64,000 nucleotides of DNA, from assembly GCA_019044685.2 (NCBI GenBank), contig JAGTXX020000015.1, positions 1,240,001 through 1,304,000 of the forward strand. Reading direction: 5' to 3'. Shown piece by piece: positions 1-24,167 of the stretch. Each line of letters opens with the position of its first letter. Position 1 is the first letter of the stretch. The notes under the pieces are model-generated. The model was not told the DNA's origin, did no database searches, and saw nothing but the letters and a program-made list of their open reading frames with translations. The position numbers and the translations under genes were made by a program. Origin of the DNA: Nannochloris sp. 'desiccata'. Taxonomy: Eukaryota > Chlorophyta > Trebouxiophyceae > Chlorellales > Chlorellaceae.

Positions 1-184
1 GCAGTATTTTACAAAGTAATAAAGACAGAAGGGAGTTAACCAGCCAAAATAGGACTGTCAGACCTTTTAAAAAGCATTTTTTTTTTCAAGGGACACAAAA
101 CAAAGAAAGAATTAAACGGGGACTGAAAAACGGGATATCTTAGTTAAAATTTTCTAGTTATATACTACTATTTCAAGCAGTAAC
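1..184. other. 3' flank of STAY-GREEN, no gene seen
   Basis: AT-rich sequence beyond the stop codon of the minus-strand STAY-GREEN gene. I see no coding signal; it probably holds the 3' UTR. Confidence 0.4.
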
Positions 185-1391
185 TTATTGCTGCCGTCTA
201 GTATTTGCAGCAGTAGGTGGCGGACTTCTACTAATCGCTGCTGTCACGACTCCTCGAGCCCTGCCAGCTAGAGTAGATGTCCTTCTTTCTACCTCCCTCG
301 GAGCCGTTGCTGTTGCTGTTGCTGCTACAGCCTGCAGCGTACTAACAGTCGTTGTTGTTGTGCTATTGGTAGCTCCTGAAGAAGACGGAGACTCGTGTTC
401 TTCAACTATGCTTTCTTCGCTGTGTTCCTGCCGCTCTTCCTGCTGTTGCTGCTGCGTTGGTGGCAGTACCGTCGGGGGTGACAGGAGCACTTGTTGCTCT
501 TCATTATCGCCATCCATACTACTCATTGAGCCGGAAAGTGAGGACACCAACTCATTAAATATATTTTTGCCAACTCCAGCGTCCAACCAGGTCGATCTAT
601 CCCCCAGAGAACCCCATTCTACCACTTTATTCAGTGTTGACAGATCACTCACCAAATGAACAAACACGGTGGCGGAGGCTAATTGTGGATGTTCAGCAAG
701 TAATGTCCTATCTGCGTATGCTATCGTATCCAAAACGAGTTTCATCTCCCTCTGGAAAATAAAGCTACGAAGTCTCGGGGGTGCTGGCCATAGCTCTTCC
801 CCACTTACATGACAATATACATTTAGTCTCGGTGGTGTCGAACCATCTGAAGGATGCACCACTGCCCACTCTGCTAGGATCTCGTCACGTACTATTCGGG
901 TATACCACCCTGCTAATTGATCTTCATTGTAATCTAAACCAACTGAAAGGTATAATCTACCTGTGAGATCGTTGTGGGTTAAAGTATAGCGTCTGTTTTG
1001 AGGGACACCGGTGTCGGCCGCAGCGGTGCCAGGTAAATACGTTATATTCAGCTTGGCTGGATCGAAAGGAGGGGGGTCAAATAACGCGAAACGAATCTGT
1101 GATTAGAAAACGGAAAATGTTAAGGGGTTAGAAGGCTGTGCGAAAAATAATTTTGAAGACATTTGAGTGGAGCAGCTAGGTCCCATTGGCAAAACTCACT
1201 TGTAAATCCCCTCGCCGCGGTTGAGTGAGTATTTGTGGCTGGGGCACACTAATATTGGACCCTAGAAAGATAGCTTTCTGCGAGCCGAGGCTTCGTCGCT
1301 CTCCTAGACGCTGTGTTGCACCTCCTAGCCGAAATGGAGAGTAATTGGTGGACGTCACCGCGCCCTGTGCGGTGGTTCCCATTCGCTGCAT
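185..1391 (-). CDS. SGR: STAY-GREEN-type Mg-dechelatase, two exons
   Basis: Predicted plastid enzyme that removes Mg from chlorophyll a to give pheophytin a, the committing step of chlorophyll breakdown. I join exons 1200-1391 and 185-1096 (donor GTGAGT, acceptor CACAG, phase 0) to give 367 residues. The start is the first ATG of an Arg/Ser-rich leader of about 64 residues that looks like a transit peptide. The SGR core runs from about residue 65 to 233. It shows family blocks YTLTHNDLT, LAGWYTRIVRDEILAEW, VYCHVSG, LRSFIFQREM and KVVEWGSL, which match plant SGR blocks in order (known from the family). Residues from about 235 to the end are a Gln/Ser/Thr/Ala-rich low-complexity tail. I do not see the Cys-rich C-terminal motif found in land-plant SGR. 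The family call is firm; activity is inferred. Confidence 0.87.
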
Positions 1392-1917
1392 GCAGCCTAC
1401 GTTCAACTGAAATTCTATCTACAATTCAGCAAGCCTCCAGGCCATCAACAGTCCATCCCTTGCTCTCAAAAATGTTGTGAGGATCGAAATTAAAACTTGG
1501 TTAATTAGCTGCTGCTGTCACCTTTTATCAAAAAGGCAGCGTTTTATTATATCAATACTAAAGTTCATACGAATTAAAGAATTTTTATAGAAACGAGATG
1601 ATCAGTTGACGCTTTATCTTGCGATTTTAGCCGAGGATTGAATTGAAGCGCTCGCGATCGCCTGCAGGCTTTGAAAGTTTAATAATGCAGACCGACTGTG
1701 CTATTCAATCTGGTGGGGCTTGCAATCAAGTTTGTAGCTGGTGATCTTCTAGCAAATTCCTAGTAACCTAACATGTAGACAGTCCTACCTACTGTCACGT
1801 TCTTTGCGCGAAAACAATAATTTGCTGTAAAAGTTACTACAAGTCAAAACAACAACTAACGGCAGCAACAACCTCAAAGACAAGAGAGAGACCTTTTGAA
1901 AAATCTAATCATCATTC
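1392..1917. other. Intergenic, promoter side of STAY-GREEN
   Basis: This stretch lies upstream of the STAY-GREEN start and downstream of the large plastid protein gene. It presumably holds the STAY-GREEN promoter and the 3' UTR of its neighbour. I see no convincing reading frame or RNA gene. Confidence 0.4.
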
Positions 1918-4900
1918 TTACCAACCATCTAGCAACCTGCGACACTCTTCAAGTTGAATAACAGCTTCATCTCCAGCACCGGCATCTACAGCTGCTACTA
2001 AATACCCTTCTGCCTCTTCCAACAACGCCCTCCTTTCTTCTTCTTCTTCTTCTTCTTGTTCTTCTCCATCTCTGTCGCTGCTCCCAATACAGGTGGCTGC
2101 ACTCGCAAGGGCCGTTCCAGCCAACTTCAACCCCTCAGCAGGCTCTGCATCCAACTGCAACGCAGCTTGAAACTTCTCTGCTGCATTACTGAATAGAGAA
2201 TATGCACCAGAAAAGTCTCTACTTTCTTTTACGATTTCCGCTCGAAGACAGACAGCTCTACCCCAATTTAAAAAAGCACGACCCTGGGACGGATCGTTGA
2301 CTAATACTTCACGGTATCTTCTTCCTGCTAGAACAAGCAACTCTGTAGCTTCAGATTGTAACCTCTCAGCCAAAGCACTACTTCTGTTCCCTGAGATATC
2401 CTCCTGTTCCTGTTGCTGCTGCTGCTGCTGCTGCTGTTGGTTGGAAATTCGAGCTAGTTGTCTTTTTACTCTAGCTCTAGCCATCAGAGCATTCCCACTA
2501 TTTCCTATAGCCTTTATTTGTGTGAGAGTGTCATCAGGAATGGATGAAGCAGCTTGGAAACATCTGGCTGCTTCGGTCAACGCAGCATCCGCAGCATTCA
2601 AAGCATCCTGTTGACCAGGCGCTACAGAAAATGAAGTGGTGGCAGCACTCGTAGTGCTAGTACTACTCACTGCAGCTGCAGCGTAGGCTCGACCTTGACG
2701 GAGAAGTTCTAATCCTTGAGTATAAAGAGCTTGTAAATCAACCGGAGCTTGCTGCTCACCCTCTTCTCTTTCTTCTATTCTTTCTTCTTCTCGTTCCTTC
2801 TCCTGGGCTTGGCTGCTTGAGCCTGAAGACGAGGCTGCTACTCTATTACTGCTGCTAGTACTGTACACTTCTTCTTCTTCTACTTCTTCTCCTTCCTCAT
2901 CACCACCCTCCCCAGCAGCTAATGCAGCTTCAAAAGCAATCTGTTCTTGAACAAACGACACGTTTCTACTATTAGCAGCAGCAACAGCAGAACTATTACC
3001 ACTGGCAGTGGCAACAGCACCACTGCCAGCGACCACCGCTGCTTCCTCTACCTCTCCTACTCTTTCTCCAGCAAAACGTGTACCCGGGGTCGCTGTTTCA
3101 TTCATTCTAATATCCTCGTCTTCGTCGAGAGATAACCAATCACTGATAGGCACTCCAGTTGCTGCTAGAGAGCTACTTTTGCTATTCACTTCATCGTCTT
3201 CTTCTTCTTTTCCTTCCTCTGCTACCACAGCAGTGCTCGTAGTAGCATCCCTATTTTCATCGCCATTGTTCTTTTGAATAGCATCATCACCATGGAGCAA
3301 AGCTTGCATGCGTTGATAAGCCTCCTTCTTCGCTGAAGTCTCCTCTTCGTCGAAATTGATAACACCCAGAACGGAAGAATTAGATTTAACATTTGAAGAT
3401 AAGGAAGAAGAAGAAGAATTAGTTGTTGTTGTTGTCGTTGCCTCTTGTTGTTCCCACCGACTTTCAGCGGCAACAACACTGGCACTGGCAGGGACAAGCC
3501 GCTCTTCTAACGCAGCAAGCTGGTTGCCTAAGGATTCTAATTTCACAGACATGGAAGTAATACCAGCTGCAGCTTGATCTAACGTTGCTTCAGTAGCAGC
3601 AGCAGCTTGTGAGGCAGCAGTATCTGAGGAAGCAGATTCTAGCACTGCTGCCTCACGAGCTGCGGCAATAGCCTCTAATACAGGGTTCACTAACTTCACC
3701 ATTCTTATTTCTAGATCTACAAGCCATTTAGAATCTGAAGCTTGTCTATCTACAGCAGCTACTTCAGCAGCAGATCTCAATTCATTCTGCAATTGTAATA
3801 ATGATGCTTCCAACGGACCTAAGAGCAGTTCCTCTGCTACCGCTCCTGGCTGCCTGGCCAACGCCAGTGCCGCTTTTTGAGTTATTTCTTGCTGTTCTAA
3901 CGCTGATTTCACAGATTTAGACAACTCTACGAGTTCAGAACGCAATAAAACGACTTGTTCCGCTGCTATAGAGCCTTCTCCGATTAGATTTTTGATTTGA
4001 ACTTCTTGCTCCGCCTTCAAATCGGTGAGCTGATCATCCAGAACTACTAATTTCTTTCCTAATTGATTCCACTGGGCTGGAGCGATCGTTGCAGGAGTTT
4101 CCATGGCTTCTTTTAGTAATTCGCGCTGCTTTTCTAACAATTCCTGCCCAGCTACTGCGATTTCTTCAGCAACCAAAGCTCGTAAACTTTCTTCGTTGAC
4201 GCTTTGCCTGCTTTGCCTGCTTTGCTCTGCTGCTGCGGTCAGCCCAGGGGCTGCTGCGGCAAGTGCTTGGGGCAGCTGACGAACAGGTTCTAAAGATTGC
4301 CAAACTTCATCACGAATAGTAGCAGCAAGAAGGTCTTTACTTTCCAATAAAGCTCCAGACATGGAGGACCCCAGACGCCGGAGCCCTTCTGACTGAGCTA
4401 CTTCAAGGCCACTTATAGCTCCTTCTAGAGCAGCTAACCTACCATCTACTTTACCCAACGCAGATAATTCATCTCCAGTAGCTTGCCGTAAATCTGCATT
4501 CACGTCTCTACGCAGAGAGACCAGTGCAGCTGAAATTTCCTTGATTGCTTTACTTCGTTGTACCGCCGCATCTTCCAACGCTTCCTTGGTGGCTTCCTCA
4601 ATATTTCGTACAGTGCCTTCTACGGAAGACAGTTTGGCTTCAACAGTACGGACAGCCTTTTCTGGGGAAGCTCTGCCTTGGCGGACTTCATCTACGAGAG
4701 CAGCGACCTCCTCTGCCACTTCTGCCGCACTTTCCTCAGACAGGACGGCAACTTGTCGAAGTGCCATAGCAACTTGAGTTTGGAGCTCAGCTTGAGCTGC
4801 CTGAGAGTCTAATCTTCCACGTTGTTTGCTTGCATAGAGTGCGATTATGGGGAGTAAAATAGGACCGCCAACAAGGAGAGCTTCTTGGGTCAATAGAAAA

Positions 4901-5148
4901 GCAACAGCAGAGCCGACGGTGCCGAGCCACGCTCCTGCATCGATTGTAGCCCAAAAAGAACGCCACGCTGGGCTAGGTTTCGTCACTTGCTCTCTATTAA
5001 GCCCTGATCTCGCTGTAATGGCGCAGTTCAGGCGAATAGGACGGGCAGGAAGTCGAAACACTGGGCTACAGGGGCGTGATTGCAACTGGGGACGGAATTG
5101 TAAAGCAGGAAACGGACATGTCCGCGAGCCCAGTCTTGTTCCCTGCAT
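1918..5148 (-). CDS. Large plastid membrane coiled-coil protein with TPR-like C-terminus
   Basis: A single open frame of 1076 residues starting at the ATG at 5148; the frame stays open four codons further, but only from a TTG. Residues 1-60 are rich in Arg, Ser and Pro with few acids, as in plastid transit peptides. Two closely spaced hydrophobic stretches follow at about 72-106, probably a membrane hairpin. From about 110 to 520 the protein is Ala/Glu/Gln/Leu-rich and looks like long coiled coil. A central acidic and Ser-rich region includes a poly-Gln run coded by CAG. The last 250 or so residues contain helical, Ala-rich segments resembling degenerate TPRs. I recognise no catalytic motif. 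I infer a membrane-anchored plastid structural protein; function unknown. Confidence 0.75.
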   Translation of the reverse strand: MQGTRLGSRTCPFPALQFRPQLQSRPCSPVFRLPARPIRLNCAITARSGLNREQVTKPSPAWRSFWATIDAGAWLGTVGSAVAFLLTQEALLVGGPILLPIIALYASKQRGRLDSQAAQAELQTQVAMALRQVAVLSEESAAEVAEEVAALVDEVRQGRASPEKAVRTVEAKLSSVEGTVRNIEEATKEALEDAAVQRSKAIKEISAALVSLRRDVNADLRQATGDELSALGKVDGRLAALEGAISGLEVAQSEGLRRLGSSMSGALLESKDLLAATIRDEVWQSLEPVRQLPQALAAAAPGLTAAAEQSRQSRQSVNEESLRALVAEEIAVAGQELLEKQRELLKEAMETPATIAPAQWNQLGKKLVVLDDQLTDLKAEQEVQIKNLIGEGSIAAEQVVLLRSELVELSKSVKSALEQQEITQKAALALARQPGAVAEELLLGPLEASLLQLQNELRSAAEVAAVDRQASDSKWLVDLEIRMVKLVNPVLEAIAAAREAAVLESASSDTAASQAAAATEATLDQAAAGITSMSVKLESLGNQLAALEERLVPASASVVAAESRWEQQEATTTTTTNSSSSSLSSNVKSNSSVLGVINFDEEETSAKKEAYQRMQALLHGDDAIQKNNGDENRDATTSTAVVAEEGKEEEDDEVNSKSSSLAATGVPISDWLSLDEDEDIRMNETATPGTRFAGERVGEVEEAAVVAGSGAVATASGNSSAVAAANSRNVSFVQEQIAFEAALAAGEGGDEEGEEVEEEEVYSTSSSNRVAASSSGSSSQAQEKEREEERIEEREEGEQQAPVDLQALYTQGLELLRQGRAYAAAAVSSTSTTSAATTSFSVAPGQQDALNAADAALTEAARCFQAASSIPDDTLTQIKAIGNSGNALMARARVKRQLARISNQQQQQQQQQQEQEDISGNRSSALAERLQSEATELLVLAGRRYREVLVNDPSQGRAFLNWGRAVCLRAEIVKESRDFSGAYSLFSNAAEKFQAALQLDAEPAEGLKLAGTALASAATCIGSSDRDGEEQEEEEEEERRALLEEAEGYLVAAVDAGAGDEAVIQLEECRRLLDGW

Positions 5149-5854
5149 GGCTAATTCCAATATAAAATATTTATTGGGATTATCTAGCGGCTTGGCGGGC
5201 TGATAATTTGGTAATTAAAGTAGAAATAGTTTTAAACTTGAGAAATTGTAATCAGTTGGACGAAGATGAGCCAAAATGCCTGCAATGCGCTTTGCTGTAT
5301 CTAGAATAAACTGTTCAGGACTGAAGAAACAATAGAGTGCTGTGAATATGTTGGATAGATGCTTGAATGAACAAGCACCACTGGCCGTGCTGCGCCAAAG
5401 CACGGATTCAGTCGGTGCTCCTCAGTTTTCGAAGAGGAATCCTGCGAAGATCTCTTAGACTTGTGCTTCTTCGCCTGCTATTTTATTTAAACATCTTTTC
5501 TACAGGTTTGTCTATGGCCAACGCTAATTCCGCCCATGGTAAGTTCGAAACTCTGATCGATGGTAGCTGCCCCTTGTATTGACTGAAGGTCCACTTGCGT
5601 TACCTTTAATCCCCGCCCCGGAAAGGCTCTGCGTTCCTCTGTTCACGTTTACATCGTTGCGTCAAGCTCAGATCTCCTGATCTCGTTGCTTAACGGGGTG
5701 AAGTTTGATCAACTCAACCACGTCAACCAACGTGATCTGACATCCCATTGTTGATGCCAGCTCTCTGCGCAACTCTTCTCCTCTCATCAAGAAATTGCAT
5801 CCGAGAGTTGGTGTCTCGGTGGGAGGAGTAGAGCCCGAATAGCGAATGCTGCTG
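5149..5854. other. Intergenic, no gene supported
   Basis: This stretch contains the upstream region of the large plastid coiled-coil gene. It also contains a short plus-strand frame of about 70 codons (5367-5582) that starts without a good ATG context and matches nothing I recognise. I see no repeats shared with the island that begins at 5855. Confidence 0.35.
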
Positions 5855-6205
5855 TCAACCGCATCGGCCCTGCTCTGCCAACTCTCCCTGTAGGAGCAAA
5901 TCGCCTCGTAACTCAGTTACTAGATTTGAGACCTCCATGGGATTTTTCTGCAAAGGAGGAGACCGAGACCGAGAAGTTGGCGAGTGAGAAGGCGACGAAG
6001 GAGCAGCTTGAGTTTGAGCTTGAGGCGCACCAGGAGCTTGGGGAGCAGGAGCCACCGCAGGTGTCGGGACTGCAGGAGCAGCAACACTGCGTCTAGGGTA
6101 TTTTAATGTATGAAGACCTTTGAGAAAAAGTCTTCGAATGCGCTGGGCAAGACTGTCCAAGCTGTCACCAAAAAAAGAAAGATGGGTACCCAGTTTTGGA
6201 GCTGC
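5855..6205 (-). pseudogene. Truncated copy of the minus-strand island gene
   Basis: The encoded segment RIRRLFLKGLHTLK followed by an Ala/Pro-rich stretch is nearly the same as the start of the last exon of the gene at 6913-8134. At DNA level 6090-6203 follows 7490-7604 closely with few changes. Similarity stops abruptly near 6200. There the sequence switches to the 3' flank that elsewhere lies behind the plus-strand partner gene (9946 onward). Both upstream exons and the conserved C-terminal 170 residues are missing, and the tail after about residue 55 is different. This is best read as a remnant left by a deletion or unequal exchange between island copies. Confidence 0.7.
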
Positions 6206-7452
6206 AATAACTGGGTAGGTATTTTATGAATGAATGAAATGAGCTGGTAGTCGGGTGAAATTATTAATGTGTGCCTTGGAAGAAGAGAAGAGGTCAAAAC
6301 GGACTTGAGCTGTTCCTTGCTCGTCTGGTGGTCATGTTCCTTTCTTGTGCTGCCCAGCAAAAGGCCTGCTGCAACGCTGTGATATATCTACTTAAAACAC
6401 AGCTATCGCGCAGCCATGCGCCTTGTATTCCATACTTGTCTTCTATACTATACTACCACCTCCTGGGCAGCATTGCGCTTCATGCAATGCTTCCCTATAT
6501 CTATTTACCTTATTTCTAATCTACTTAATAAGGTGTAAATCAATCATACATATTATTGCCATAGAAGTATTAGTGACATTGTAACAAGCAAACAAGAAAA
6601 TATCTGTTCTTAGAGGATATTCACCCTGTCCAAAACGCTGTTGATGTTCGCTGTTTGTCTTGCCCTGTTACATTCTTGCCTTATTGACCTACATTCCCGT
6701 CCTGCTTAGCTGAACCTGCCGTGCCCTGCCTTCCTGATTCTATTCCATTATTCCCTTATTCAAAACTACCTATATGCGGGTGCCTGTCCGAGTCGCCTTG
6801 CGGTTCCGAGTGAGTGAGCTACTACTGTAGGAGACTATAAATTATTTGTAACATGAATGGAATCTGAAATCTAATATCTATATAAATAACTAGTCAGCCT
6901 TGAACGAGTCAATCAATACCCATATTCAAAAACTGGCTTCAAGTTCCCAGGGCTCACAGGGCTCATGGGAAGGACGCTGTCCACCACTTGAATGATTCCT
7001 TCATCTTCCTGCGTAACGCCTGGGGCTAAGAGACCAGCAAGCTCAGTTTCCTGCGGCGAGAGCAGACTGAGAGCTGGCACGGCAGAACCAGGGTCGGGCT
7101 GCGCCTGCACAACTCCTGCCGCCATGGTACTGGTCAGAGTTGGATACCCCGAAGGGTTGATAGGATGGGCGACCGTCGCATAAATTGTTTTGTTCTGTAC
7201 TGGGGCGTCTGCAGCCGCCTCACGACAGGCTGCTCTGGTGACAGCAGGCGCATTCCTTGCTGCTTGGATCCTCGGCGAGGAGGCTCTCGGGGAAGCTGGA
7301 AGGATCATTTTTAGAGGTGATTTCTGTTGCTGCTGATGCTGAAGAAAGGGAGGGAAAGAAGGAGTATTGGCAGGAAGTACGTGCGCGGGATCAGCTGGCT
7401 GAGCTTGAGGCGCAGTCACAGCAGTAGGCCTAGGGGCCGGAGCTTGGGGAGC
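6199..7452. repeat. Island repeat copy R1
   Basis: About 1.25 kb that is almost identical to 9946-11199, with roughly seven substitutions or single-base indels noticed by eye. It covers an AT-rich intergenic segment (6206-6912) and the 3' part of the minus-strand gene's last exon. Short open frames inside the intergenic part occur in all copies and look like chance. Confidence 0.9.
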
Positions 7453-8134
7453 AGCAGGAGCAGCCGCAGGTGTCGGGACTGCAGGAGCAGCAGCACTGCG
7501 TCTAGGGCATTTTAATGTATGAAGACCTTTGAGAAAAAGTCTTCGAATGCGGTGGGCAAGACTGCCCAAGCTGCCACCGAAAAAGGAAAGAGGGGGACCC
7601 AGTTCTGGAGCAGGCGCTGCTGCTCCTTCAGCTTCAAAGCTGGCATGTTCTTCGCGTCCACTCAGCTCCTGATCTGTCGCCTTTTTGAGCTACAGAAAAT
7701 TAAAGAAGAAATAATTACATTAGAGAACAATAAAACGCCAGGAAGAGAAAGCCAAAGCCGTTTTAGACAGTAAGGGCCTTCAAGCGCTTGAAGGACAGTT
7801 CTCAAGCAAGAAGTAGCAGGTCTGCTCCCTTACCTCGGTTTTAATCGCTCTTTTTCTGGCTAGGTATCGCCTGGCGCGACTTGTTAGCTCTGCCTCATTG
7901 ATAGTCTCCTGATCGCCCTGCAAAGAAATTGGAAAGGAAGAAGAGGAGCGAGCGACTCGTGAGGGAAGGAGTTGAAAAGTGGGGTTGTTGGCAGAGTGAA
8001 TGATAGCATTAAGCTCCCATAGCTGCTTTAGTGCACAAACATGGATTGAAACTCACAGTAGGTGACCTTTCTTTACGTTTGGTATTGGAGGCAGGTTGGG
8101 GAACCTCGATGGGTAAAAGATGGTTGCGAGGCAT
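6913..8134 (-). CDS. Unknown Pro/Ala/Gln-rich protein, module 1 minus gene
   Basis: I read three exons, 8057-8134, 7834-7917 and 6913-7689, all in phase 0, giving 312 residues. Donors are GTGAGT and GTAAGG; acceptors are TTTGCAG and CTGTAG. The N-terminus is short and basic (residues 1-54). The last exon has a basic RIRRLFLKGLHTLK helix, then long Ala/Pro/Gln-rich stretches including a QQQQ run, and a hydrophobic C-terminal end finishing in EYGY. I recognise no domain. It is head to head with the plus-strand gene at 8433, with 298 bp between start codons. A second copy lies at 10660-11889; the two share their last 170 residues almost exactly but differ in their first half. The protein may be a disordered regulator, but its function is unknown. 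Confidence 0.7.
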
Positions 8135-8432
8135 CTTCCTTGTCGTTCTGGGAATAAAGGTGCTTTCACTGCTGGTGGCTCGGAAGTTATAGAACGAGTT
8201 GCAAATATTTATTTCTGCACGGGTTCAGGGTTGAAGATGCACTTTCTAAGCTGCGCTTGAGCTTGCTGTTGACAGTGTTGCGAAGATTTTCTTAAAACTT
8301 TGAAAGAGCTCTTTGCCTGACAGCCAAAATATTGCACACAAATCTGCATCAAACAGCACCTTCTGAAAGACACAATTATAATACATTATAACAACTTAGT
8401 CTCGATAGTCGCAGTGAGTCCGTCTCTTTACC
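8135..8432. promoter_or_regulatory. Divergent promoter of module 1
   Basis: 298 bp between the starts of two divergent genes. AT-rich blocks such as ttataatacattataac near the plus-strand start could serve as a core promoter. The corresponding 275 bp of module 2 (11890-12164) shows no obvious similarity by eye. Confidence 0.45.
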
Positions 8433-9876
8433 ATGGTCTTCTTTTCTTTGGGCGTGAGATCAATTCTAAAAAGTGGTGGTGCTAGACGCCATGCGAGGGG
8501 TTCCAAGGGGACTCATTTAGGAGGAAGCACTCTGAGACGCGTAATTGCAAATGCCACTGCTATGGCTGCGCCTTTCAAGGTACGTATATTATGATGCTTT
8601 AATTCAATTTCAAAAAAGGAATCGGACCGTAGGAGCAGGTTGCCTCAAACATAGTTCTGCGCCTTACAGCTTCAAATTTGTGTTTTAACCATCGCATTGA
8701 AAGATTATGACCCCCCACCCCTTGTTTTATGTTCCCTCGCAGGGTTGCTTTCCCAACGCCATTCATGCCTGCCCTCGAGCCTCCCCACCGGCTAGCTCAC
8801 AGGCCCAGTCCGACGCTGAAGCTGGGTCTGATTGTTCCTTTGAGGACATTCCCACTTCAGAGTTGATTTTCCTGATCCAACATAGCTGGGAGAATGTCCA
8901 GGAAGTGGAGAAACTCAAAAATCAATTGTCGGCACCCCGCACGATGCAAAAGCCGGAGCAATGGGCTAAGGAGCGCCTCTATCCCTTGAAGGACATGGTT
9001 GCCGGTTATCGCCAAGTCATATTTGATGCTGGGCTTGGCGATTTGCTTGGAGAAGACGTTACCTTGTATGCCATGGATTGCGATCCTATGTTGAATAGAG
9101 TGAAGGCGTGTGATGGCGGCAGCACAGGCGTTGTGGCTGCTGATGCCCCGCTGAGGCCGAACCCCTGCGAAACTGGCGCAGCGATGATGTATGATGTGTC
9201 TGATGAGCCTTATACTAGCCCTGCTACCTCAGGCAGCAAACTTAAGCGCTCCGAAGTCGAGGAAGAGGGACAGCAACAAGAAGACGGCGACTGTGCTGAC
9301 TGCTGTAAGCGGTTGAAGCGTATTGAAGAGCCTAGCCTGCAGGTGCTGTTAGACTACTTGAAGCAGTGCAGCAAAGAAACACTCATTTTTGAGTTTCAAA
9401 AGTGGGAAAGAAAGGAAGAAGAAGCTGTAGTTGAGTGCAGTGTGTATAAAGATGCAGGCACACAGGTCGATGCTCGCTGGGGGGCAGTAAGAGGTGAATA
9501 CGAAGCTGCAGTAGCTGAGTACAACATGCTGCGGGCGATTCTTAAATCTAATAAGTTAGAACGTCTTGTGGATGCTGCTCAGAGCAATCTTTATGATGGT
9601 TATTTATTCAATGATAGTGAAGATGGCTCTGTATTTTTGGGCATGTTGGTCGCAGAAGAAAATGAAGGAAAAGAAGAAGAAATATCATCTCCTACAGTTG
9701 GCGCAGATAGTGACAAGGCTACTCCTGACGAGTACAAAGAGAATGCTGCTCCTTTCCAAAAGGCAGTGGATTTTACACAGCGCATGATGGCGCCTTTCCA
9801 CAACGCTCAGCGGGTGCTGAAAGAATGCAACCGTCGCTTTCAGATGCGAGAAAGAAGTGGAGAGACTAGGTGGTAA
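8433..9876 (+). CDS. Unknown coiled-coil protein with NLS-like motif, module 1 plus gene
   Basis: Exon 1 is 8433-8579 and exon 2 is 8743-9876 (donor AAG/GTACGT, acceptor CGCAG, phase 0), giving 426 residues. The first exon encodes a basic leader containing GARRHARGSKG, shared with the paralogue at 12165. The middle is acidic with a KLKRSE-type basic patch and a second KRLKR patch that could act as nuclear signals. Helical Glu/Lys-rich segments around residues 210-320 look like coiled coil. The final 45 residues, from NAAPFQKAVD to the end, are virtually identical to the paralogue. The bodies of the two proteins align throughout but have diverged strongly. No known domain recognised; function unknown. 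Confidence 0.72.
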
Positions 9877-10190
9877 AGAGGACCGAAGTAGAGCTTGTAG
9901 TAAACTTATTTGGACGGTCATTTAAACTATTAAACTAGAGGAAACGAGCTGCAATAAACTGGGTAGGTATTTTATGAATGAATGAAATGAGCTGGTAGTC
10001 GGGTGAAATTATTAATGTGTGCCTTGGAAGAAGAGAAGAGGTCAAAACGGACTTGAGCTGTTCCTTGCTCGTCTGGTGGTCATGTTCCTTTCTTGTGCTG
10101 CCCAGCAAAAGGCCTGCTGCAACGCTGTGATATATCTACTTAAACACAGCTATCGCGCGGCCATGCGCCTTGTATTCCATACTTGTCTTC
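9739..10190. repeat. Shared 3' end and flank of the two plus genes (R2 side)
   Basis: From GAGAATGCTGCTCC near the end of the plus gene through its stop and 3' flank, this stretch is nearly identical to 13527-13978. Upstream of this point the two paralogues are much less alike, so the boundary is sharp. Confidence 0.88.
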
Positions 10191-11199
10191 TATACTATAC
10201 TACCACCTCCTGGGCAGCATTGCGCTTCATGCAATGCTTCCCTATATCTATTTACCTTATTTCTAATCTACTTAATAAGGTGTAAATCAATCATACATAT
10301 TATTGCCATAGAAGTATTAGTGACATTGTAACAAGCAAACAAGAAAATATCTGTTCTTAGAGGATATTCACCCTGTCCAAAACGCTGTTGATGTTCGCTG
10401 TTTGTCTTGCCCTGTTACATTCTTGCCTTATTGACCTACATTCCCGTCCTGCTTAGCTGAACCTGCCGTGCCCTGCCTTCCTGATTCTATTCCATTATTC
10501 CCTTATTCAAAACTACCTATATGCGGGTGCCTGTCCGAGTCGCCTTGCGGTTCCGAGTGAGTGAGCTACTACTGTAGGAGACTATAAATTATTTGTAACA
10601 TGAATGGAATCTGAAATCTAATATCTATATAAATAACTAGTCAGCCTTGAACGAGTCAATCAATACCCATATTCAAAAACTGGCTTCAAGTTCCCAGGGC
10701 TCACAGGGCTCATGGGAAGGACGCTGTCCACCACTTGAATGATTCCTTCATCTTCCTGCGTAACGCCTGGGGCTAAGAGACCAGCAAGCTCAGTTTCCTG
10801 CGGCGAGAGCAGACTGAGAGCTGGCACGGCAGAACCAGGGTCGGGCTGCGCCTGCACAACTCCTGCCGCCATGGTACTGGTCAGAGTTGGATACCCCGAA
10901 GGGTTGATAGGATGGGAGACCGTCGCATAAATTGTTTTGTTCTGTACTGGGGCGTCTGCAGCCGCCTCACGACAGGCTGCTCTGGTGACAGCAGGCGCAT
11001 TCCTTGCTGCTTGGATCCTCGGCGAGGAGGCTCTCGGGGAAGCTGGAAGGATCATTTTTAGAGGTGATTTCTGTTGCTGCTGATGCTGAAGAAGGGGAGG
11101 GAAAGAAGGAGTATTGGCAGGAAGTACGTGCGCGGGATCAGCTGGTTGAGCTTGAGGCGCAGCCACAGCAGTAGGCCTAGGGGCCGGAGCTTGGGGAGC
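9946..11199. repeat. Island repeat copy R2
   Basis: Near-identical partner of 6199-7452. It includes the 783 bp between the convergent genes ending at 9876 and 10660, where I see no gene. Identity ends at GGAGCTTGGGGAGC inside the last exon of the minus gene, after which the two minus genes diverge. Confidence 0.9.
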
Positions 11200-11889
11200 G
11201 AGAACCACTGGAGCTGCTGCCTGTGCCTCTGCAGCTGCAGGTTCTGGTACAGGCGAGACCTGCATAGGAGAGCCCTCCGATTCTCTCTTGCCGAGACTTC
11301 CCAAGGAGACAAACCCGTTGACAATGTTTGTCCCAACACGCTTGATGGTTTGGTTCAAAGTTTGAAGATTGAGCCGACCAAACCAGCGGCCGGCACCCTG
11401 CACCACGTTCGTCACTCCGGCAAATAAACGAGGTCCTGACGTAGGCTGAGGTTTCGAGAGGTGGATCAGGGTAGTGCGGCCTTGGTTCGCGGCCACTTCA
11501 GCATTTCGTGCAGCCTAGCGATCGCGCTCCTGCAGAATTGTGAGCAACAAGTTTTCAGCCTTTGTGCAGCATGAAAGATGCATAGCCCTAAGTATTCTCG
11601 GCTCTTTTGTGCCGTGAGAATACTTACCTCTCTTCTCCTCTTCCGATCAGCCCTCGCTGCAGCAAGAATAAGCGTTCCTGTTTTAGAGGCGCTGGCCTGC
11701 AATGCCTGGCATCAAGTATGGGGTTAGTTGGGCAACTGCCATCAAAATATGGGGTAAATGTCTTTGCAGCTTTTCATTGCACCTCAATCATATCTTTCTC
11801 ACCTGTTGAGCCTTTGCAGTGATACTGGTCTTCTTGGTAGGAAGCTCTGCTGCTGCCTTTGGAGTTGATCTTCTTTTTTTGCGGGTCAT
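10660..11889 (-). CDS. Unknown Pro/Ala/Gln-rich protein, module 2 minus gene
   Basis: Three exons are read: 11803-11889, 11628-11696 and 10660-11514, all phase 0, giving 336 residues. Donors are GTGAGA and GTAAGT; acceptors are TTGCAG and CGCTAG. The exon 3 acceptor must be the TAG at 11515-11517, because using the earlier CTGCAG would put that TAG in frame. The N-terminus is strongly basic (KKRRS, RKRRRE), suggesting nuclear or organelle targeting. The middle holds a Gly/Arg-rich segment not found in the module 1 copy. The last 170 residues are almost the same as in that copy. It is head to head with the gene at 12165. Function unknown. Confidence 0.68.
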
Positions 11890-12164
11890 GCTTGCTATGC
11901 TGCAACCTTCCGTGGTTGCTTCTGCCGTATCTAACAGGTAAAAAGTTATGCCAAGCTTTTGATAATGCCGGTATGGAATCTCCGGAAACCCACTTTAAAG
12001 GACAGCAAGTCAGACACTCGTGAGCATTTTTCTTTTCCAGCAAACTCTCGAACCCGGTTATTTACAGGATTCTTTGCCAGCAAGAGCTTTATAAATTCTA
12101 AAGTTAGTAAAGTAGGCTAGGTAATATTAGCGAGCGAGGAGTATTTCTAATCTCTATAAACAAG
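11890..12164. promoter_or_regulatory. Divergent promoter of module 2
   Basis: 275 bp between divergent start codons. TATA-like strings (ctttataaattc, ctctataaac) stand within about 80 bp of the plus-strand start. Shared control of both genes is inferred from arrangement only. Confidence 0.45.
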
Positions 12165-13664
12165 ATGACACTCTTCAACTTGGGATCATCGTCAATTCTG
12201 CGTTCTGGCAGCGCCAGACGCCATGCCAGAGGCTCCAAGGGCCTTCAATTTTCTCGGGCTAGCAACATGCAGCGCGTTGTTACGACTCTCAGCGCAATGA
12301 TGTCACCTTTTAAGGTATTACAATGTATAATTCAAAATATTTTTTGAAACTCCGAAATCCCATTGACAGCGGGCTGCACCTGGCAGCTCTTATTTGCCTT
12401 GCAACCACGTCTCTGGAGTATTGATGTTACCCTCAACCCTCTCTTTTCGATCTTCTCGCAGATGTGTTTTCCCACCTCCACTGCCATGCCTTCCCACTGC
12501 ATGGCGTCCCCACCAGCCTCTCCTTCCCAGTCTCAAGAGACCCAGCAGCGTGGGGACGCGTTTGATGGAATGGCCGTAGAGGATTTACTCCAAGAGATCC
12601 AAGCTTTATTTCAAGGCTTTCAGCATGCTCAGAAACTCATGGCAGAGACCAAGCAAGTAGTAGAGGCCCAAGATCGACGCAAGCACGAAATGGAAACCTG
12701 GGCTAAAGAACATGTCTATCAGCAGCAGGTCATTGTTACTGGTCTTCGGCAAGTTATTCTCGATGCTGGCCTTGGTCATTTGCTTGGAGATGACGTTAGC
12801 GTTGATGAAATGGAATGTGATCCTCTGGTGGGAACATGGGCAGAGCCGTGCGACAGTGGGGTAGTCATGGCTGCCGATGCGCCCCTCAGGGATCTTCCCT
12901 GTGAAACTGGCATGTGCCGGGTTTATTTCGTGGAGGAGAAGCCTTATAATAGCCCTGCAAATTCAGGCAGCAAACGCAAGCGCAGTGAAATCGAGGAAGA
13001 GAAAGAAGAAGGTGGGGGGGACGATGACCACGAACTCGACAGCTGCAAACGCCACAAGCCTTCTGACGATTGTAGCCTCGAGGCGTTGTTGGAATACCTG
13101 GAGCAATGCAACATAGAGACCCTTGTGTGTGAGGCTCAGACTTGGTCAATGAAAGCGGAACAGAAAGAAGCTGAGCTTGACGAGGTCTTGGAAAGACGGG
13201 ATGCGCTTTGGGAGGAGAACAACCACAAGCATGAAGCTTTGAAGGCCCAATTTGACAGAGTAAATGAAGAAGTTGCAAGACTTGCAGCCATTCTTGGCGA
13301 CCATAGTCTCATTCATCTTGCATTTCCTACTAAAAGCAACGAGAGCGACGAGAGCGACCGTATCAAAGGTGGTTCTTCCATCTATCTTGGCATGCAAGAC
13401 ACCGAAGCGGAAATAGTAGAAAAAGAAGAGAAAGAGGAAGACGTATCATCTCCTGCGGTGATTCCAAACGCGGATTCAGATCTACAACAGGAAGAAAATA
13501 TCGATGCAAACAGTGCTGAGAATAACGAGAATGCTGCTCCTTTCCAAAAGGCAGTGGATTTAACACAGCGCATGATGGCGCCTTTCCACAACGCTCAGCG
13601 GGTGCTGAAAGAATGCAACCGTCGCTTTCAGATGCGAGAAAGAAGTGGAGAGACTAGGTGGTAA
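12165..13664 (+). CDS. Unknown coiled-coil protein with NLS-like motif, module 2 plus gene
   Basis: Exons 12165-12314 and 12462-13664 (donor AAG/GTATTA, acceptor CGCAG, phase 0) give 450 residues. The splice site and the ARRHARGSKG leader motif match those of the gene at 8433, which supports both models. A basic SGSKRKRSE patch at about residue 210 is followed by an acidic run and CKRHK, as in a bipartite nuclear signal. Residues of about 265-330 are heptad-like and rich in Glu, Lys and Leu, consistent with a coiled coil. The last 45 residues equal those of the paralogue. No known domain recognised. A DNA- or chromatin-associated role is possible but unsupported beyond the basic patches. Confidence 0.72.
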
Positions 13665-14163
13665 AGAGGACCGAAGTAGAGCTTGTAGTAAACTTATTTG
13701 GACGGTCATTTAAACTATTAAACTAGAGGAAACGAGCTGCAATAAACTGGGTAGGTATTTTATGAATGAATGAAATGAGCTGGTAGTCGGGTAAAATTAT
13801 TAATGTGTGCCTTGGAAGAAGAGAAGAGGTCAAAACGGACTTGAGCTGTTCCTTGCTCGTCTGGTGGTCATGTTCCTTTCTTGTGCTGCCCAGCAAAAGG
13901 CCTGCTGCAACGCTGTGGTATATCTACTTAAAACACAGCTATCGCGCGGCCATGCACCTTGTATTCCATACTTGTCTTCTATACTATACTATACTATACT
14001 ATACTATACTATACTATACTATACTATACTATACTATACTATACTATACTATACTATACTATACTATACTATACTATACTATACTATACTATACTATACT
14101 TTATTACCACCACCTTTGCGCTTCATGCAATGCTTCCCTATATCTATTTAACTTATTTCGAAT
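13527..14163. repeat. Island repeat copy R3, truncated
   Basis: Starts inside the plus gene at GAGAATGCTGCTCC and follows the R2 copy (9739 onward) through the 3' flank. It is interrupted by an expanded microsatellite at 13979-14100. A short deletion removes the TCCTGGGCAGC seen in R2, and similarity ends near 14163. The minus gene that should follow is absent. Confidence 0.85.
13979..14100. repeat. Pentanucleotide microsatellite (ATACT)n
   Basis: About 24 uninterrupted ATACT units. The R1 and R2 copies have only two to three units at the same place, so the array expanded inside R3. Open frames rich in Ile-Leu-Tyr-Tyr-Thr come from the repeat and are not genes. Confidence 0.97.
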
Positions 14164-14194
14164 CTGTCGCACGGCTTTTGAATGTGCAGCATAT

Positions 14195-14422
14195 TTTTCC
14201 ACTCCCTCGTAGCAAATTTTCCACTCCCGCCTGCGGGGCTACATATTTTCTATGTAGGGTATTAGGGTATATTTTGTAGTGTATTAGGGCATATTTTGTA
14301 TGTAGGGTATGTAGGGTGTGTAGGGTGTGTAGGTATGTAGGGTATTAGGGTATGTAGGGTATTTCATAATTTGGCTTCCGGGAGTGGAAAAAAAAAAAAA
14401 AAGGTCTAGGAGGGAGTGGAAA
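14195..14422. mobile_element. Fold-back element with nested inverted arms
   Basis: Outer arm TTTTCCACTCCCTC (14195-14208) matches inverted GAGGGAGTGGAAAT (14410-14423) with one mismatch. Inner arm 14217-14229 is an exact 13-base inverted match of 14379-14391. The arms enclose TAGGG-rich sequence. No coding capacity is seen. It resembles a small non-autonomous fold-back or MITE-like element; no target-site duplication was verified. Confidence 0.5.
14251..14363 (+). repeat. Degenerate telomere-like TAGGG repeats
   Basis: About ten TAGGG or TTAGGG-containing units (for example tatgtagggtattaggg) spaced irregularly. It is not a perfect telomere array. It could be an interstitial telomeric remnant or internal sequence of the fold-back element. 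Confidence 0.7.
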
Positions 14423-14582
14423 TGTAGGGTATTTGAATGTTTTTTGACAACACAATTTATAATATTTATTTATTATCACTCCAACTGCTTTATGTTTATT
14501 CCATCATTGACATATTTTACATCTTCTATTTACAATCAACATGACTGTAAAAGAACAACGAAACAGCAGGAAGCATTTTACT

Positions 14583-15373
14583 TTACTCCTCATCAGCAGC
14601 ACTCCAAAAAAACAACCCCGCACAAGGATTCGGATTTAAACCATGCTGCACAGCCCAGTCTTTGACTTGAAAACCCTGCCTTTTCGCAGGTCTACGTGCT
14701 TTCACACGCTCTTTCTGCTTAAAAACTAGAAACAAATAGCGATGTTTGCCCTTGGCTGGCTCGGGAGGCATGTAGCTCTCTACTTCTTCTCCTCGAATGA
14801 CGTCTGTGCCGGGAATATTTATAACCAACCAGTGCAGCCAGCTACGGTATTTAGGTGTATTAGGTGCTGGAGCATCAGGATCGACCATTACCAGAGTATA
14901 GGTATGGTTTTTAGGGAGAATTTCGATTGTCGGTTCAGAAAGAAGCTCATCTGGAGAGATCGTTTGGCCATTTTCGATTTGAAGGGAGCCGTATTTAATA
15001 ATCAATTCAGCTTCATCGCTGATCTCTGCAATAGACATTATAGTAGAAAGCCAGTAGAAGGTTTATTTGTAGGGTTTAAAGAAGAACGAGACTTAATTGT
15101 GGCTAAAAAAAAAGATAAGCCGGGCAAGCGCTGTGGTTAATAAAAATTTCTTTTGTTTAAAGATAAGCTTCCCTAGACGGCTAATGACGCTACAAATCCC
15201 CTTGTTGGACTCTTTGTATGGTATTTAATTCAACAAAACTTACGATCTACTATCTGAGGCACAGCTTTGCATGCAGCAAAGGCCACAGTGGTATCGGAAA
15301 TTTTATCAGGAAAGTCTGATATCTCAAAGGGGCCTCGGGCCTCCTGAGTGGGACTTTTAATAGAGTGAGGCAT
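14583..15373 (-). CDS. PEBP-family protein (FT/TFL1/MFT-like)
   Basis: Phosphatidylethanolamine-binding proteins are small anion-pocket proteins; in plants they act as transcription co-regulators in flowering and seed control, elsewhere as kinase or protease inhibitors. I join exons 15244-15373 and 14583-15025 (donor GTAAGT, acceptor TTGCAG, phase 1) for 190 residues, the usual family length. The join turns the N-terminus into the expected AVPQIVD-QISDEAELIIKYG strand. Pocket motifs DPDAPAP and HWLVINIPG are present at about residues 90-120, and YLFLVFKQ follows. There is no clear targeting signal. FT, TFL1 or MFT subtype cannot be assigned by eye; MFT-like is most likely for an alga by family history. 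Confidence 0.88.
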
Positions 15374-15785
15374 TATTGTGGTCTGTTATCAATGTTCGAG
15401 TGTGCAGAATTTAAGCTTATGTTCGTTTGAGAAGAAAGAGCGGGTGTCCAAGGTTTTTGGCCTCGTGGCTTTCAGTTCAGCTTCCTAGGGAAGAAATGGA
15501 GGAATACATTCGTTTTCCTGATTCCTACGAGGCAATTCATACTTCCCAAGTGAATTCTGTTACTGAGAATGATGTGGCGTCTGCATATTGTTTACTGCTG
15601 CCCCCCCTGACAAACACGTTGCCTGAGTTTGACCTAAATATCATCATGACATGGCGTGGGCGCTGAGCTTTACCCAGCAAAGATCTGGTCTAATTGAACA
15701 GCTTCTGGACATCAATTGGTGGCAACATCTTTCCCGCATAATTCAATTTTATTTCACTCTAGTTCAGCGTTGTAATTTATCTGCA
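15374..15785. promoter_or_regulatory. Divergent upstream region of PEBP and CBM20 genes
   Basis: 412 bp between two divergent start codons. A plus-strand frame at 15427-15666 has no recognisable content. The region probably holds both promoters and 5' UTRs. Confidence 0.35.
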
Positions 15786-17047
15786 ATGTCTGCGGTGTCA
15801 GCGATCACTGCACACATTGGTGTCAGCAATCTGGTTGCTATTTCTTCTTCTCGGCGAGGTAATGCACCTCGTATGATCTGTTCAGCTCATTTCATGAACA
15901 TGCCACGTCCTCAGTTTTCAAGTAAGCTCGGAAAATGTACTGGCTTTTGCGTCGAATCCCTCAAAATCGAATTTCTGTCCTCGTTTTAAAATTTACAGCA
16001 TTTCCGTTCCATGCTTTTCAGGCAATTCTTTCAAATCTAATATCACGAAGAACGGAGGTACCAAAGGATTCTTTAACTCTTCTTCCAAGGTAATCAGCAC
16101 CTTTTGATTTTTGAATCTCTACATCCCTCGATATCAGCCCAACAACTTTTCAGCAATACTAATCCTGCTCTCTGTATCCTTTGCAGCAGTCCCGTGCATC
16201 TTTTACTCCATGTGCAGCTCTTGTCAACGTAGAATTCCTCGTTCCTGAGCTTCCTTTGGAATTCGGCCAGAGTCTTAAGATTGTCGGTGGAGCTCCCTCT
16301 CTCGGCAATTGGGAAGCCAGCACAGGCGCTGTCCTTGAATGGCAAGAAGGAAACAACTGGAAGGGTGCAGCTGAAGTAGAAGTTGGCTCTGAGGTGGAAT
16401 TTAAGCTTGTTAAAGTTGCAGGAGAGGATTGGTCTTCTTGGGAGGACGGTGAAAATAAAGTGTTTGCTATACCCGCTACTGCAACTGGAGTTGAGGTCAT
16501 CTGTCTCTGGGAAGGAGACATCTCTATTGAAGTAAGCGAAGCTACAGCCGTAGTTGAGGAAAAGCCTAAAAAGTCTTCTTCCTCTTCTTCATCAAAGGCT
16601 AAAGCACCAAAGAAAGCTAAAAAAGAAGAGAAAGCCGATGAACCTATTGCTGCTGCTGCTGCCGCTGCTGCCCCTGCCGCTGCTGCCCCTGCCGCTGCTG
16701 CCCCTGCCGCTGCTGCCCCTGCCGCTGTTGTTGTTGCCGAGAAGGAAGAAAATGCAGCTCCCCAAGAACCTGCTGCTGTTGCTGCCCCTGCCGCTGTTGT
16801 TGTTGCCGAGAAGGAAGAGAGACCATCTCACCAAGAGAAAGAGAAAGACGCTCCTGCTGAATCTGCTCCTACCCACTCTAATGGAGCAGCAGCAGCAGCA
16901 GCACCAAGCACTGGTGTCGATATTTCTTCTGAAATGAGCTCTCTTGCAAATGCAGTTTCAGTTGGCAGCGACGGTTCATTGATGATTGAGTTCAATAGCA
17001 ATGCCGATGGTGTCACCGCTGCATCCCTTGCAGCTAAATTAAAATAA
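15786..17047 (+). CDS. Plastid-targeted CBM20 starch-binding protein
   Basis: Three exons, 15786-15921, 16022-16089 and 16187-17047, give 354 residues. An alternative donor for exon 1 (after CGAG at about 15858) keeps the same phase and would shorten the leader. The first 68 residues are Ser/Arg/Asn-rich and suit a plastid transit peptide. Residues of about 80-175 form a CBM20: VNVEFLVPE, GQSLKIVGG, SLGNWEAS, LEWQEGNNW and WEGDISIEV fit the family, including the conserved Trp residues of the glucan sites. The rest is Lys-rich, then Ala-Pro repeats encoded by near-exact DNA repeats at about 16655-16815, then a short helical end. No catalytic domain is present, so it is probably a starch scaffold or regulator. 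Confidence 0.85.
16655..16815 (+). repeat. Tandem Ala-Pro coding repeat
   Basis: Units of gctgctgcccctgcc recur several times, and the longer block gctgttgttgttgccgagaaggaagaa occurs twice about 75 bp apart. The copies keep reading frame, extending the linker of the CBM20 protein. Such arrays commonly vary in length between strains. Confidence 0.85.
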
Positions 17048-18944: not shown

Positions 18945-20696
18945 ATGGCAGACGTCAAACGCCGACAAGTCTCAATCGACGAGGCAATTTCACATGTGGG
19001 TGGGGATTTTGCCTTGGCGCAGAAACTTCAGACAGCAGTGGTGAGGCTTTGCAATAGTATGTGATATTTTTAAAGTCTTTTTAGGGGTACAGTGAACTCG
19101 CTTTATACCACTAACTAAACCTGTTTATGATTGCAGTGTGCCCTCGCCTGGTCGATCACAGCTTTTCACACGCTACTAGTAATTTTTACTGGTCTAGGCA
19201 TAGACCCACAGCGTCTAAGACTCATAGAATGCACAAAAACGGGCGGAGAAGCATGCGAGGCTGCTCTAGGCCACCCTTATCCTGCCATGTGTGCTCTCCC
19301 GCCGGACGCTTGGGCCTTCAAATCACGGGGCTTCTCTCTTGTATCTGAGTTTAACCTCGTCTGCGACAAAGCTTGGTTAGTCCACGCTGCAGCAGGCTGT
19401 TTCTTCCTCGGAACTCTCATAGGTTGTGCTATTTGGCACTGGTTATCAGACACAGTCCCGCCTCGAAGAATGCTGCACTCTTCGGCGATTATCTCTGGCG
19501 TTGCAGGTTCTCTAGCTGCCACGGCGCCTTTTTTATGGGCATTTATGCTGTTTAGAGTTTTAACAGGCGTAGGCGTGGGTGGTATAGGCCTAGCATCTTT
19601 TGTACTAGCTTCAGATGTGATGGGAGCCTCATGGCGACCGTACACTGGTTTATTTCTACATGGTGGATTTTCTGCAGGAGCTGCTGCCGCTACTCTTTTA
19701 GCATGGGTTATTCCTTCCTGGCGGTGGATTACGTTCCTTAGCGGTATTGCATCCTTAGCCCTGGCTATTTTCACGTGGTCTCTGCTCGTAGAAAGCCCGC
19801 AATGGCTGTTATTGCGAGGCAGGAAAGGGGAAGCTACAGCAGCAATTGCATCGGTGGCGTTTACCAACAGCCGCAGACCTCCAGAATTTCCACTAGCCGA
19901 TCCAGCAGGACTTTTAGCGAATCCACACCGTACTCTATTAGATGTGCTTCGAAACACGCGTCTACGCAGAAGCACAGCTCTTTTATGTTTGATCTGGTTT
20001 ATTGCCACGACAGCCTATTATTCTGGAGTGATGCTCATGGACGCCTTGGGAAGCGGCAATCCAGATGGGGATGGAACTTCACTAGAGTTAGCTCTAAGTG
20101 GATTTTTATATGAACTACCCGGTGTGGCTGCAGCATGGCTTGTAGCGGAGCGCTTAGGTAGAAAGCACGCTGCAATAGGGGGCTTACTACAAGCAGGGGG
20201 TTGTTTGTTAGGCGCAGGTCTGGCGAGGGGGGACGCTCAAAGAGCGTTACTTGTAACAGCTCGATTTGGCCTTGCTGCAGCGTGTTCGGCCATGTATTTA
20301 CTATCATGGGAGACGTTCCCTGTTGTGGTACAGCATCCTGGCATGGCTGTAACGAACTACGCGTCAAGAATAGGTGCAGTTGTTACTCCGTCATTAGCCT
20401 TAGCGGCTTCTCGGCTTCGGTCAGGGCTGGTGCCTTTGGTTCTTACAGGGGCAACCTGCCTGGGCGCAGCGATTTTAGTGAGTTTACTTCCTGAGACATT
20501 GAATGGCCCTGTGCATGAGACTATTCAGGATATGAATGCAGCTTATTCAGTGAAAAGACATCGATCGTGGACATATTCTTTGAAAAATGTGTTTAAAAGG
20601 CCGCCTTCTTCTTCTAGTGGTGGTGCTGCTGGTACGCCACTTGGAGCGGTGGCTCTACCGACGATGCCTCTAGATCCTGCGGCGCGTAGTGTCTAG
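18945..20696 (+). CDS. SLC22-like major facilitator transporter
   Basis: Exons 18945-19040 and 19137-20696 join in phase 0 (GTGAGG donor, TTGCAG acceptor) to give 551 residues. The cytosolic start is followed by TM1 and a large extracytosolic loop with several Cys, then about eleven further membrane segments, as in organic cation/carnitine transporters. The linker after TM6 carries ESPQWLLLRGR, close to the ESPRWLL signature of sugar and organic-ion porters. The short C-terminus is Ser/Gly-rich. Substrate is unknown; organic cation, anion or carnitine-like transport is a family inference. No plastid signal is seen, so plasma membrane is most likely. Confidence 0.82.
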
Positions 20697-21027
20697 TTAA
20701 CTCAATTATAGGGTATTCATACTTATTTTGTGCTTCCCTCTTTTCTTTATTTTTTTTTGTTTTCAAATACTCTTCTTCTTCCCGTCTGTGTTGCAATCTT
20801 TTTATTTTTATTTTAATCTTTTTGTTTTGTTAAATTGTAGATTTGTTTGCTTGCTTGAATACCTATTGCAAGCCTGTACTATGCTCGATGTAAAAGAACT
20901 AAGAGTTTGCCTGTGGCAGTGCCCTTTCAGCCATCTTCAACAGTTGCGCTCTGTGGCTTTTTTTTGCTGCTTGAAAACAGGGCAAATTATTCCTTGGATT
21001 GTTAAAATCTATTGTACTTCCGAAACC
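20697..21027. other. Intergenic between transporter and Gemin2
   Basis: Contains a T-rich tract (20750-20830) that is probably the transporter 3' UTR. An in-frame ATG at 20881 could extend Gemin2 by 49 residues, but the added sequence is hydrophobic and unlike the family. Confidence 0.4.
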
Positions 21028-22223: not shown

Positions 22224-22611
22224 GTTGGTCTTCAGCGTTTTTCTTTCTTCCTCTTAGAGGCTAGTATGTTCTGTTTTACAACTTTTTTTGCTTTCTAGAA
22301 AACATCAAGTGCTGCAAAAAGAAGAAGAAACTAATTTTTCTTGTGATCAAGTCATTGAACCAAAGGGAAAAGAGAATAAATAAAGAGAAAAGGAAGGGCG
22401 GAGATTCATTTTATGCTATTTATTACTATCTAAACACAAGCTCTAAATTTCATTTTATCTTTAGGGTTGGTTGTATTAAATAGCAGCTGGGTCGCCAAGG
22501 ATTAGAAAGAAAGGAAGAAAAACAACTGCACATTTTTCAGAACAAGAATAGAGCCAAACTCCCATTTTTCCAGTTACTTTTCTTTTCTCGAGGTCGTTAC
22601 ATGGTGCTTTT
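22224..22611. other. Convergent 3' region, no gene seen
   Basis: AT-rich sequence between convergent genes, probably both 3' UTRs. No reading frame or repeat of note. Confidence 0.4.
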
Positions 22612-23820: not shown

Positions 23821-24167
23821 TTTGGCTACGTGGGTTGCTGAATAACTCTGCAGAGGTAAAGTATAGATTATTTATGTGTAGTTATTGGCAGTTCAAGCTA
23901 TTCTGTCTCGATTCTGGGGGCTCCAAGCGTCGCAGTTGACCGTTGACTTCTTCTTTTCTCGAGGCACCGCAGCAAAAGTGCTCTTAGTGGCTCCGAACTG
24001 GGACACTCGACAGCAATTTTGCATCTTAATTCAGCCTCCCCTTCCCCCCAATTCATTATCAATTATTATTTGCGCTTATTGCGCTTATTGTCTACGCCTG
24101 CCAGTGCACCACTACCCTTCTACTACACTACACGTGCACACATTGTTGCAACCATCTGGTAAACATC
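23821..24167. promoter_or_regulatory. Divergent promoter of the secreted paralogue pair
   Basis: 347 bp between divergent start codons. A CT-rich segment and a duplicated tgcgcttattgcgcttattg near 24070 lie within it. Joint control of both genes is inferred from position. Confidence 0.4.

Follow-up and report, generated by a model that had tools for sequence, protein, structure and literature searches.

How can two adjacent copies of one gene pair remain almost identical at the outer ends of their genes and differ strongly in everything between? This question is raised by a locus in a 64,000-nucleotide stretch of DNA (the window; C15:1240001-1304000) from the green alga Nannochloris sp. 'desiccata'. 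The locus contains two tandem modules, each consisting of a minus-strand gene, a promoter of ~280 bp and a plus-strand gene, arranged head-to-head. A first-pass annotation, made from the letters of the window, had described this duplicated divergent unit, and both the unit and its coordinates are confirmed by exon models, repeats and public proteins. The most probable history is that a head-to-head gene pair was duplicated in tandem long ago, leaving two complete units and one remnant, and that recombination has since kept the outer halves alike. The genome of this alga is reportedly the subject of a paper by Sanders et al. 2022. The assembly analysed here comprises 21.55 Mb in 18 contigs, with 2,153,451 bases in contig C15, and another set of gene annotations for the species, Ndes2526B, is placed on contigs of other lengths. 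Passages of a separate study give 21.6 Mb and 45.0% GC for N. desiccata UTEX 2526 and report diploid assemblies for Nannochloris (PMC12636532).

The locus is built of near-identical repeats that flank two divergent cores, in the order R1 (6199-7452), core A (7453-9729), R2 (9730-11199), core B (11200-13517) and R3 (13518-13991). The cores were delimited by alignment, and the right edge of core A is blurred by 3 differences that extend to 9738. Each core contains the N-terminal half of a minus gene, the promoter and most of a plus gene. R1 consists of spacer and the C-terminal coding part of minus gene A; R2 consists of the C-terminal coding end of plus gene A, the convergent spacer and the C-terminal coding part of minus gene B; R3 consists of the C-terminal coding end of plus gene B with the first part of the spacer, and is ended by a TATAC tandem array. 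R1 is 99.4% identical to 9946-11199 in R2 (7 differences in 1.25 kb), and R3 is 98.3% identical to 9730-10202 (8 differences in 0.47 kb). Both breaks between repeat and core fall inside coding sequence. The left break is sharp at 7452/7453, in exon 3 of the minus gene, and the right break lies in exon 2 of the plus gene, near 9738.

In models picked from several GT-AG splice options, the open frame of each of the four genes is complete. Minus gene A (exons 8134-8057, 7917-7834 and 7689-6913) encodes a basic protein of 312 residues rich in Pro, Ala and Gln (36%), which matches the public protein P0005 except for 1 residue. Its start codon is separated by a shared promoter region of 298 bp (8135-8432) from that of plus gene A (exons 8433-8579 and 8743-9876), which encodes an acidic protein of 426 residues with predicted coiled coils; P0002 differs from it at 1 residue. 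Minus gene B (exons 11889-11803, 11705-11628 or 11696-11628, and 11514-10660) encodes 339 or 336 residues, depending on the second exon, and the 336-residue P0004 differs from it at 2 residues. Promoter region B (275 bp, 11890-12164) leads to plus gene B (exons 12165-12314 and 12462-13664; 450 residues), whose last 416 residues are identical to P0001, a public model that begins at an internal Met. The conservation of exon number between copies described in the first-pass annotation holds and extends to phase, as every intron in copies A and B alike is of phase 0. In Ndes2526B, plus A, plus B and a minus A model carry the adjacent gene numbers 08194-08196.

A decayed piece of exon 3 of an A-type minus gene lies on the minus strand at 6033-6202, where it is 91% identical to 7439-7611. 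Because this remnant adjoins R1 directly, the array must formerly have had at least one further unit. In P0007, an alternative model among the species' public annotations, minus A is joined to the remnant. In addition, a 258-base piece occurs in three places (6199-6455, 9946-10202 and 13734-13991), where unequal crossing-over could readily take place. The remnant and the 258-base piece are substrates for exchange of this kind, and they argue for the proposed duplication with recombining outer halves.

Divergence also changes abruptly within single genes, in favour of this account. In blocks of 150 alignment columns, DNA identity between the copies is 39-68% in the cores, 67% and 78% in the two boundary blocks and 99-100% in the repeats. 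Over 368 aligned codons of the plus gene core, nonsynonymous divergence (dN) is 0.48 and synonymous divergence (dS) ~2.0, which is saturated, whereas dS is 0.036 over the last 48 codons of the same gene. The C-terminal 177 codons of the minus gene have a dS of 0.007; the value for the minus core, ~2.8, comes from an unreliable alignment that may not be real. Synonymous divergence thus steps from ~2 in cores to 0.007-0.04 in 3' ends. Selection on protein does not account for the identity of the repeats, because identity is just as high in the non-coding spacer as in the coding part. The plus gene core itself is under constraint, as indicated by a dN of 0.48 against a dS of 2.0 and by identities of 0.62, 0.65 and 0.45 at codon positions 1, 2 and 3, the third being the least conserved. 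The frames are intact in both copies and in public annotation, which also favours this account.

The two halves of the pair differ in how far common descent of the cores can be traced. Local alignment scores of core DNA were compared with those of 200 shuffles per segment. No shuffle reached the score of plus exon 1 or of the plus exon 2 core, so plus genes A and B share descent. Few shuffles did so for the plus intron (4), minus intron 1 (7) and the minus exon 3 core (11), and many for minus intron 2 (62), minus exon 1 (149), minus exon 2 (177) and the promoter (181). Promoters A and B align no better than shuffled sequence and have no common 9-mer on either strand. At the protein level the N-terminal halves of minus A and minus B gave a score of 45, which was reached by 50 of 1000 shuffles; homology between these halves is therefore not established from sequence, and their common descent is suggested more by position, exon number and phase. 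The strong divergence of promoters and N-terminal halves noted in the first-pass annotation is borne out.

A mechanism consistent with these results can be proposed. Recombination between the direct repeats, by gene conversion or unequal crossing-over, would homogenise the 3' halves and the spacer. Each core, with its minus N-terminus, promoter and most of its plus gene, would be passed on as a single block. The acidic coiled-coil plus protein may then enter the nucleus and bind the basic, largely disordered minus protein encoded beside it, and the alga would own one complex of two proteins in an A and a B version whose tails are interchangeable. The part of this scheme that concerns a nuclear complex, suggested by features of the predicted proteins, is tentative and somewhat doubtful. 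It is consistent with the opposite charge of the partners, since plus A and plus B have pI values of 5.0 and 4.8 and minus A and minus B values of 9.5 and 10.5, and with the long helices predicted for plus A. The AlphaFold model of P0002 (plus A) contains predicted helices, one of 59 residues, with a mean pLDDT of 53. The model of P0004 (minus B) is mostly disordered, with a mean pLDDT of 44, and together with the pI values this supports the basic and disordered character first ascribed to the minus proteins.

Like the first-pass annotation, which recognised no domain in either family, searches of Pfam and NCBIfam with the four window proteins returned no family at a meaningful score. The best match of the window genes in PHROGs had an E of 0.24, while a stretch of P0009, a distant relative of the plus proteins, matched a family of unknown function in PHROGs at E 0.0015. 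A sequence search of the PDB gave a best E of 0.059, which was treated as chance, and a Foldseek search of the PDB with the plus model gave one match, likewise no better than chance (E 7.7). None of the four proteins contains a membrane-like segment; the top 19-residue hydropathy means are 0.91-1.36, and the usual threshold for a transmembrane segment is ~1.6. Several weaker leads were rejected. Matches to CENP-R (plus B, E 0.17; P0008, E 0.059) and a Redic1-like match of P0003 (E 0.023) lie far below the curated cut-offs. A reading as a cell-cycle degron was dropped, as plus A and P0003 have a KEN-type motif that plus B and P0008 lack. An internal repeat in the plus protein was unconvincing (hhalign probability under 5). 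Rfam gave 0 matches in window 5000-16000.

Relatives of both genes exist in public records. Protein searches scored 7,996 candidates for the plus gene, both at first and with a masked alignment, and 7,998 for the minus gene, a scope in which more distant relatives may be missed. The first plus search retained three proteins (P0001, P0002 and P0003) and the masked alignment four (P0001, P0003, P0008 and, at E 2.5e-4, P0009), and the minus search retained four (P0004, P0005, P0006 and P0007). The outside relatives are P0003, P0008 and P0009 for plus and P0006 for minus. Searched against this genome, P0009 has 5 matches, all at this locus and its duplicates (best E 8.3e-7). The cores of plus A and plus B are 47% identical in protein sequence, which is close to the between-species level; values among A, B, P0003 and P0008 are 42-52%. 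Among the plus cores, 6, 3 and 7 sites back the three groupings, the four-sequence tree has a bootstrap of 76, and the plus genes leave unsettled whether the split between A and B is older than the split between species. P0006 matches the B-type minus core with a score of 107 (0 of 1000 shuffles) and the A-type with 51 (16 of 1000). As judged from these alignments, this pattern fits a split between A and B that predates the split from that species, but a fast-evolving minus A would look alike.

Several observations weigh against an old duplicated pair whose products form a nuclear complex. The dS near 2 is saturated and is based on one alignment, and the AlphaFold predictions, from three sequences per alignment, are of low confidence. 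The nuclear localization signal (NLS)-like patches first reported for the plus proteins are upheld with exceptions. The patch SGSKRKR(S/C)(E/D) is present in P0002, plus B, P0003 and P0008, but it is broken in the plus A of the window (SGSKLKRSE), where the second copy of this chromosome arm, described below, has a different base, and it is absent from P0009. Neither D nor E occurs in the first ~70 residues of the plus proteins, of which the first 50 carry a net charge of +9 and +8. Such acid-free N-termini would equally suit an organelle transit peptide, so that a nuclear location is a guess. Finally, a plus partner of P0006 was not found.

An alternative, which is unlikely but has evidence on its side, is that the cores descend from alternative alleles (idiomorphs) of a single balanced locus, for example one for mating type or non-self recognition, and were joined by unequal crossover at the 258-base repeat. 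The stronger version, in which they are ancient idiomorphs of a Chlorellales gene pair with such a function, captured in tandem on one chromosome, is somewhat less probable still. Sharp core borders inside genes, uniform flanks and minus N-terminal halves without established homology speak for idiomorphs. The preference of P0006 for the B-type core also agrees with them, although, as noted, rapid evolution of minus A would yield the same result and the plus cores give no clear tree. Each relative's record yielded one plus or one minus match only, but this is weak evidence where ~8,000 candidates were scored per search. Searches of the locus revealed none of the known sex-linked genes. If the idiomorph reading were true, exchange between the repeats could give A-only and B-only chromosomes, each with a complete gene pair.

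The internal structure of C15 bears directly on this alternative. The contig holds two inverted copies of the window's arm that are 99.7% identical over 71.5 kb, with an inverted match also at 200 kb; the stretch checked lies outside 205-626 kb of C15. The copies join near 629-630 kb, in sequence that other contigs also carry, in several cases close to the contig start. They are read as two haplotypes joined end to end, with a real duplication as the alternative. Within window positions 1-13978 the two copies differ by 12 substitutions, of which the cores (4,595 bases) contain 3 and the remaining 9,383 bases 9, and by 6 internal indels, each of them to the left of the module; outside the compared stretch, 151 mismatches occur in the 71.5 kb. 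Both cores are present on both copies, and in a comparison limited to these two the cores do not stand out for diversity. The high diversity limited to cores that the first-pass annotation looked for in a paired system is thus not seen. Variation in the cores that does not exceed that of the flanking sequence speaks against a recognition locus that is hypervariable at present.

Other features of the arms were observed. The TATAC array at which R3 stops (window 13979-14100) differs in length between the arm copies and is followed by TAGGGTAT-like repeats (14240-14440). The centre of the inverted repeat (C15:630001-635000) has close copies on C3, C6, C8, C11, C14 and C18, several near contig starts, and is perhaps subtelomeric; these 5 kb contain no run of TTTAGGG of at least 3 units, and the right end of C15 terminates in TTTAGGG repeats.

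Comparison with known systems places the locus beside, rather than within, several families. Histone H2A-H2B units are tandem divergent gene pairs whose segments are homogenised under concerted evolution. Unlike these, the algal modules are uniform only in their outer halves, their cores are saturated at synonymous sites and their family is unassigned. The chlorophyte mating-type locus contains an RWP-RK (MID-like) gene; the genome of this alga has 7 RWP-RK matches, none of them in the window, and the nearest, on C15, is ~136 kb away. The HD1 and HD2 mating-type proteins of basidiomycetes are presumably interacting nuclear proteins, encoded by a pair that is sometimes duplicated. They have homeodomains, whereas none was found in the four algal proteins with Pfam up to E 10. 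HD1/HD2 pairs are divergently transcribed, as are the pairs here (PMC4915694).

The closest likeness in layout is to the mat array of Tetrahymena thermophila, as described in passages of one paper (PMC3608545). Its MTA/MTB genes form head-to-head divergent pairs in tandem and in the same orientation, with type-specific 5' segments and shared 3' segments among which recombination occurs, as would be the case here. The comparison is one of layout, not of protein similarity, and sets six pairs against two units and a remnant. The shared 3' exons of Tetrahymena encode membrane helices and its inner germline genes are truncated, to be completed by programmed rearrangement (PMC3608545). The algal locus is not of this type, having no membrane segment and no truncated genes. 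It may work like a cassette array, one that cannot be assigned to the Tetrahymena, homeodomain or RWP-RK systems. The link to toxin-antidote, mating-type or self-recognition systems that was first raised for the locus likewise stays an analogy, in view of the lack of a Pfam family and the distance to the nearest RWP-RK match on the contig.

It is very improbable that the pair is a toxin with its antidote or another selfish linked pair. Tight divergent linkage and a fast-changing minus gene point that way and nothing else does, while there is no family match and the same units are on both arm copies. An origin of the genes in a transposon or integrated virus is equally improbable. A part of the spacer, 10351-10617 (and 6604-6870), does have relatives of 70-88% identity on C1, C5, C6, C9, C10 and C12, which account for 8 of 12 matches and lie outside the locus and its duplicate arm. 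However, the genes themselves match only this locus and its duplicates in the genome, no transposon or viral family was found, and viral contigs yielded no relatives of plus or minus. That the tandem arrangement is an assembly error is scarcely credible, for although C15 has odd joins, with its first 11,961 bases folding back and its left part forming the long inverted repeat, cores A and B differ far beyond sequencing error, are both intact, recur in the same order in the other arm copy and have genes numbered as neighbours in Ndes2526B.

The fold-back (C15:1-11961) is a near-perfect palindrome (99.5%) with its centre near 5980, which matches window 18332 (C15:1258332); the duplicate arm ends there, and the fold-back is probably an artefact of the assembly end. 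The neighbours to the right of the module look ordinary and are genes for a phosphatidylethanolamine-binding protein (14586-15062, minus) and a CBM20 starch-binding protein (16163-17044, plus). Positions 20000-24000 are single-copy except for one 101-base match. Further on, two adjacent TauE/SafE-type transporter frames on the minus strand (36152-37489 and 38154-39110) are possibly a tandem pair.

With fronts that are old and different and tails that are homogenised, this orphan gene pair probably offers a clear example from nature of recombination at work on gene halves. Passages of a published study describe a sexual cycle in Chlorella as only possible, cryptic and uncharacterised (PMC12636532), and a literature search at the level of titles and passages found no mating-type locus that had been characterised in Nannochloris or Picochlorum. 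If the cores were alternative forms kept across species, the locus would be a concrete candidate recognition or mating-type locus for this algal group.

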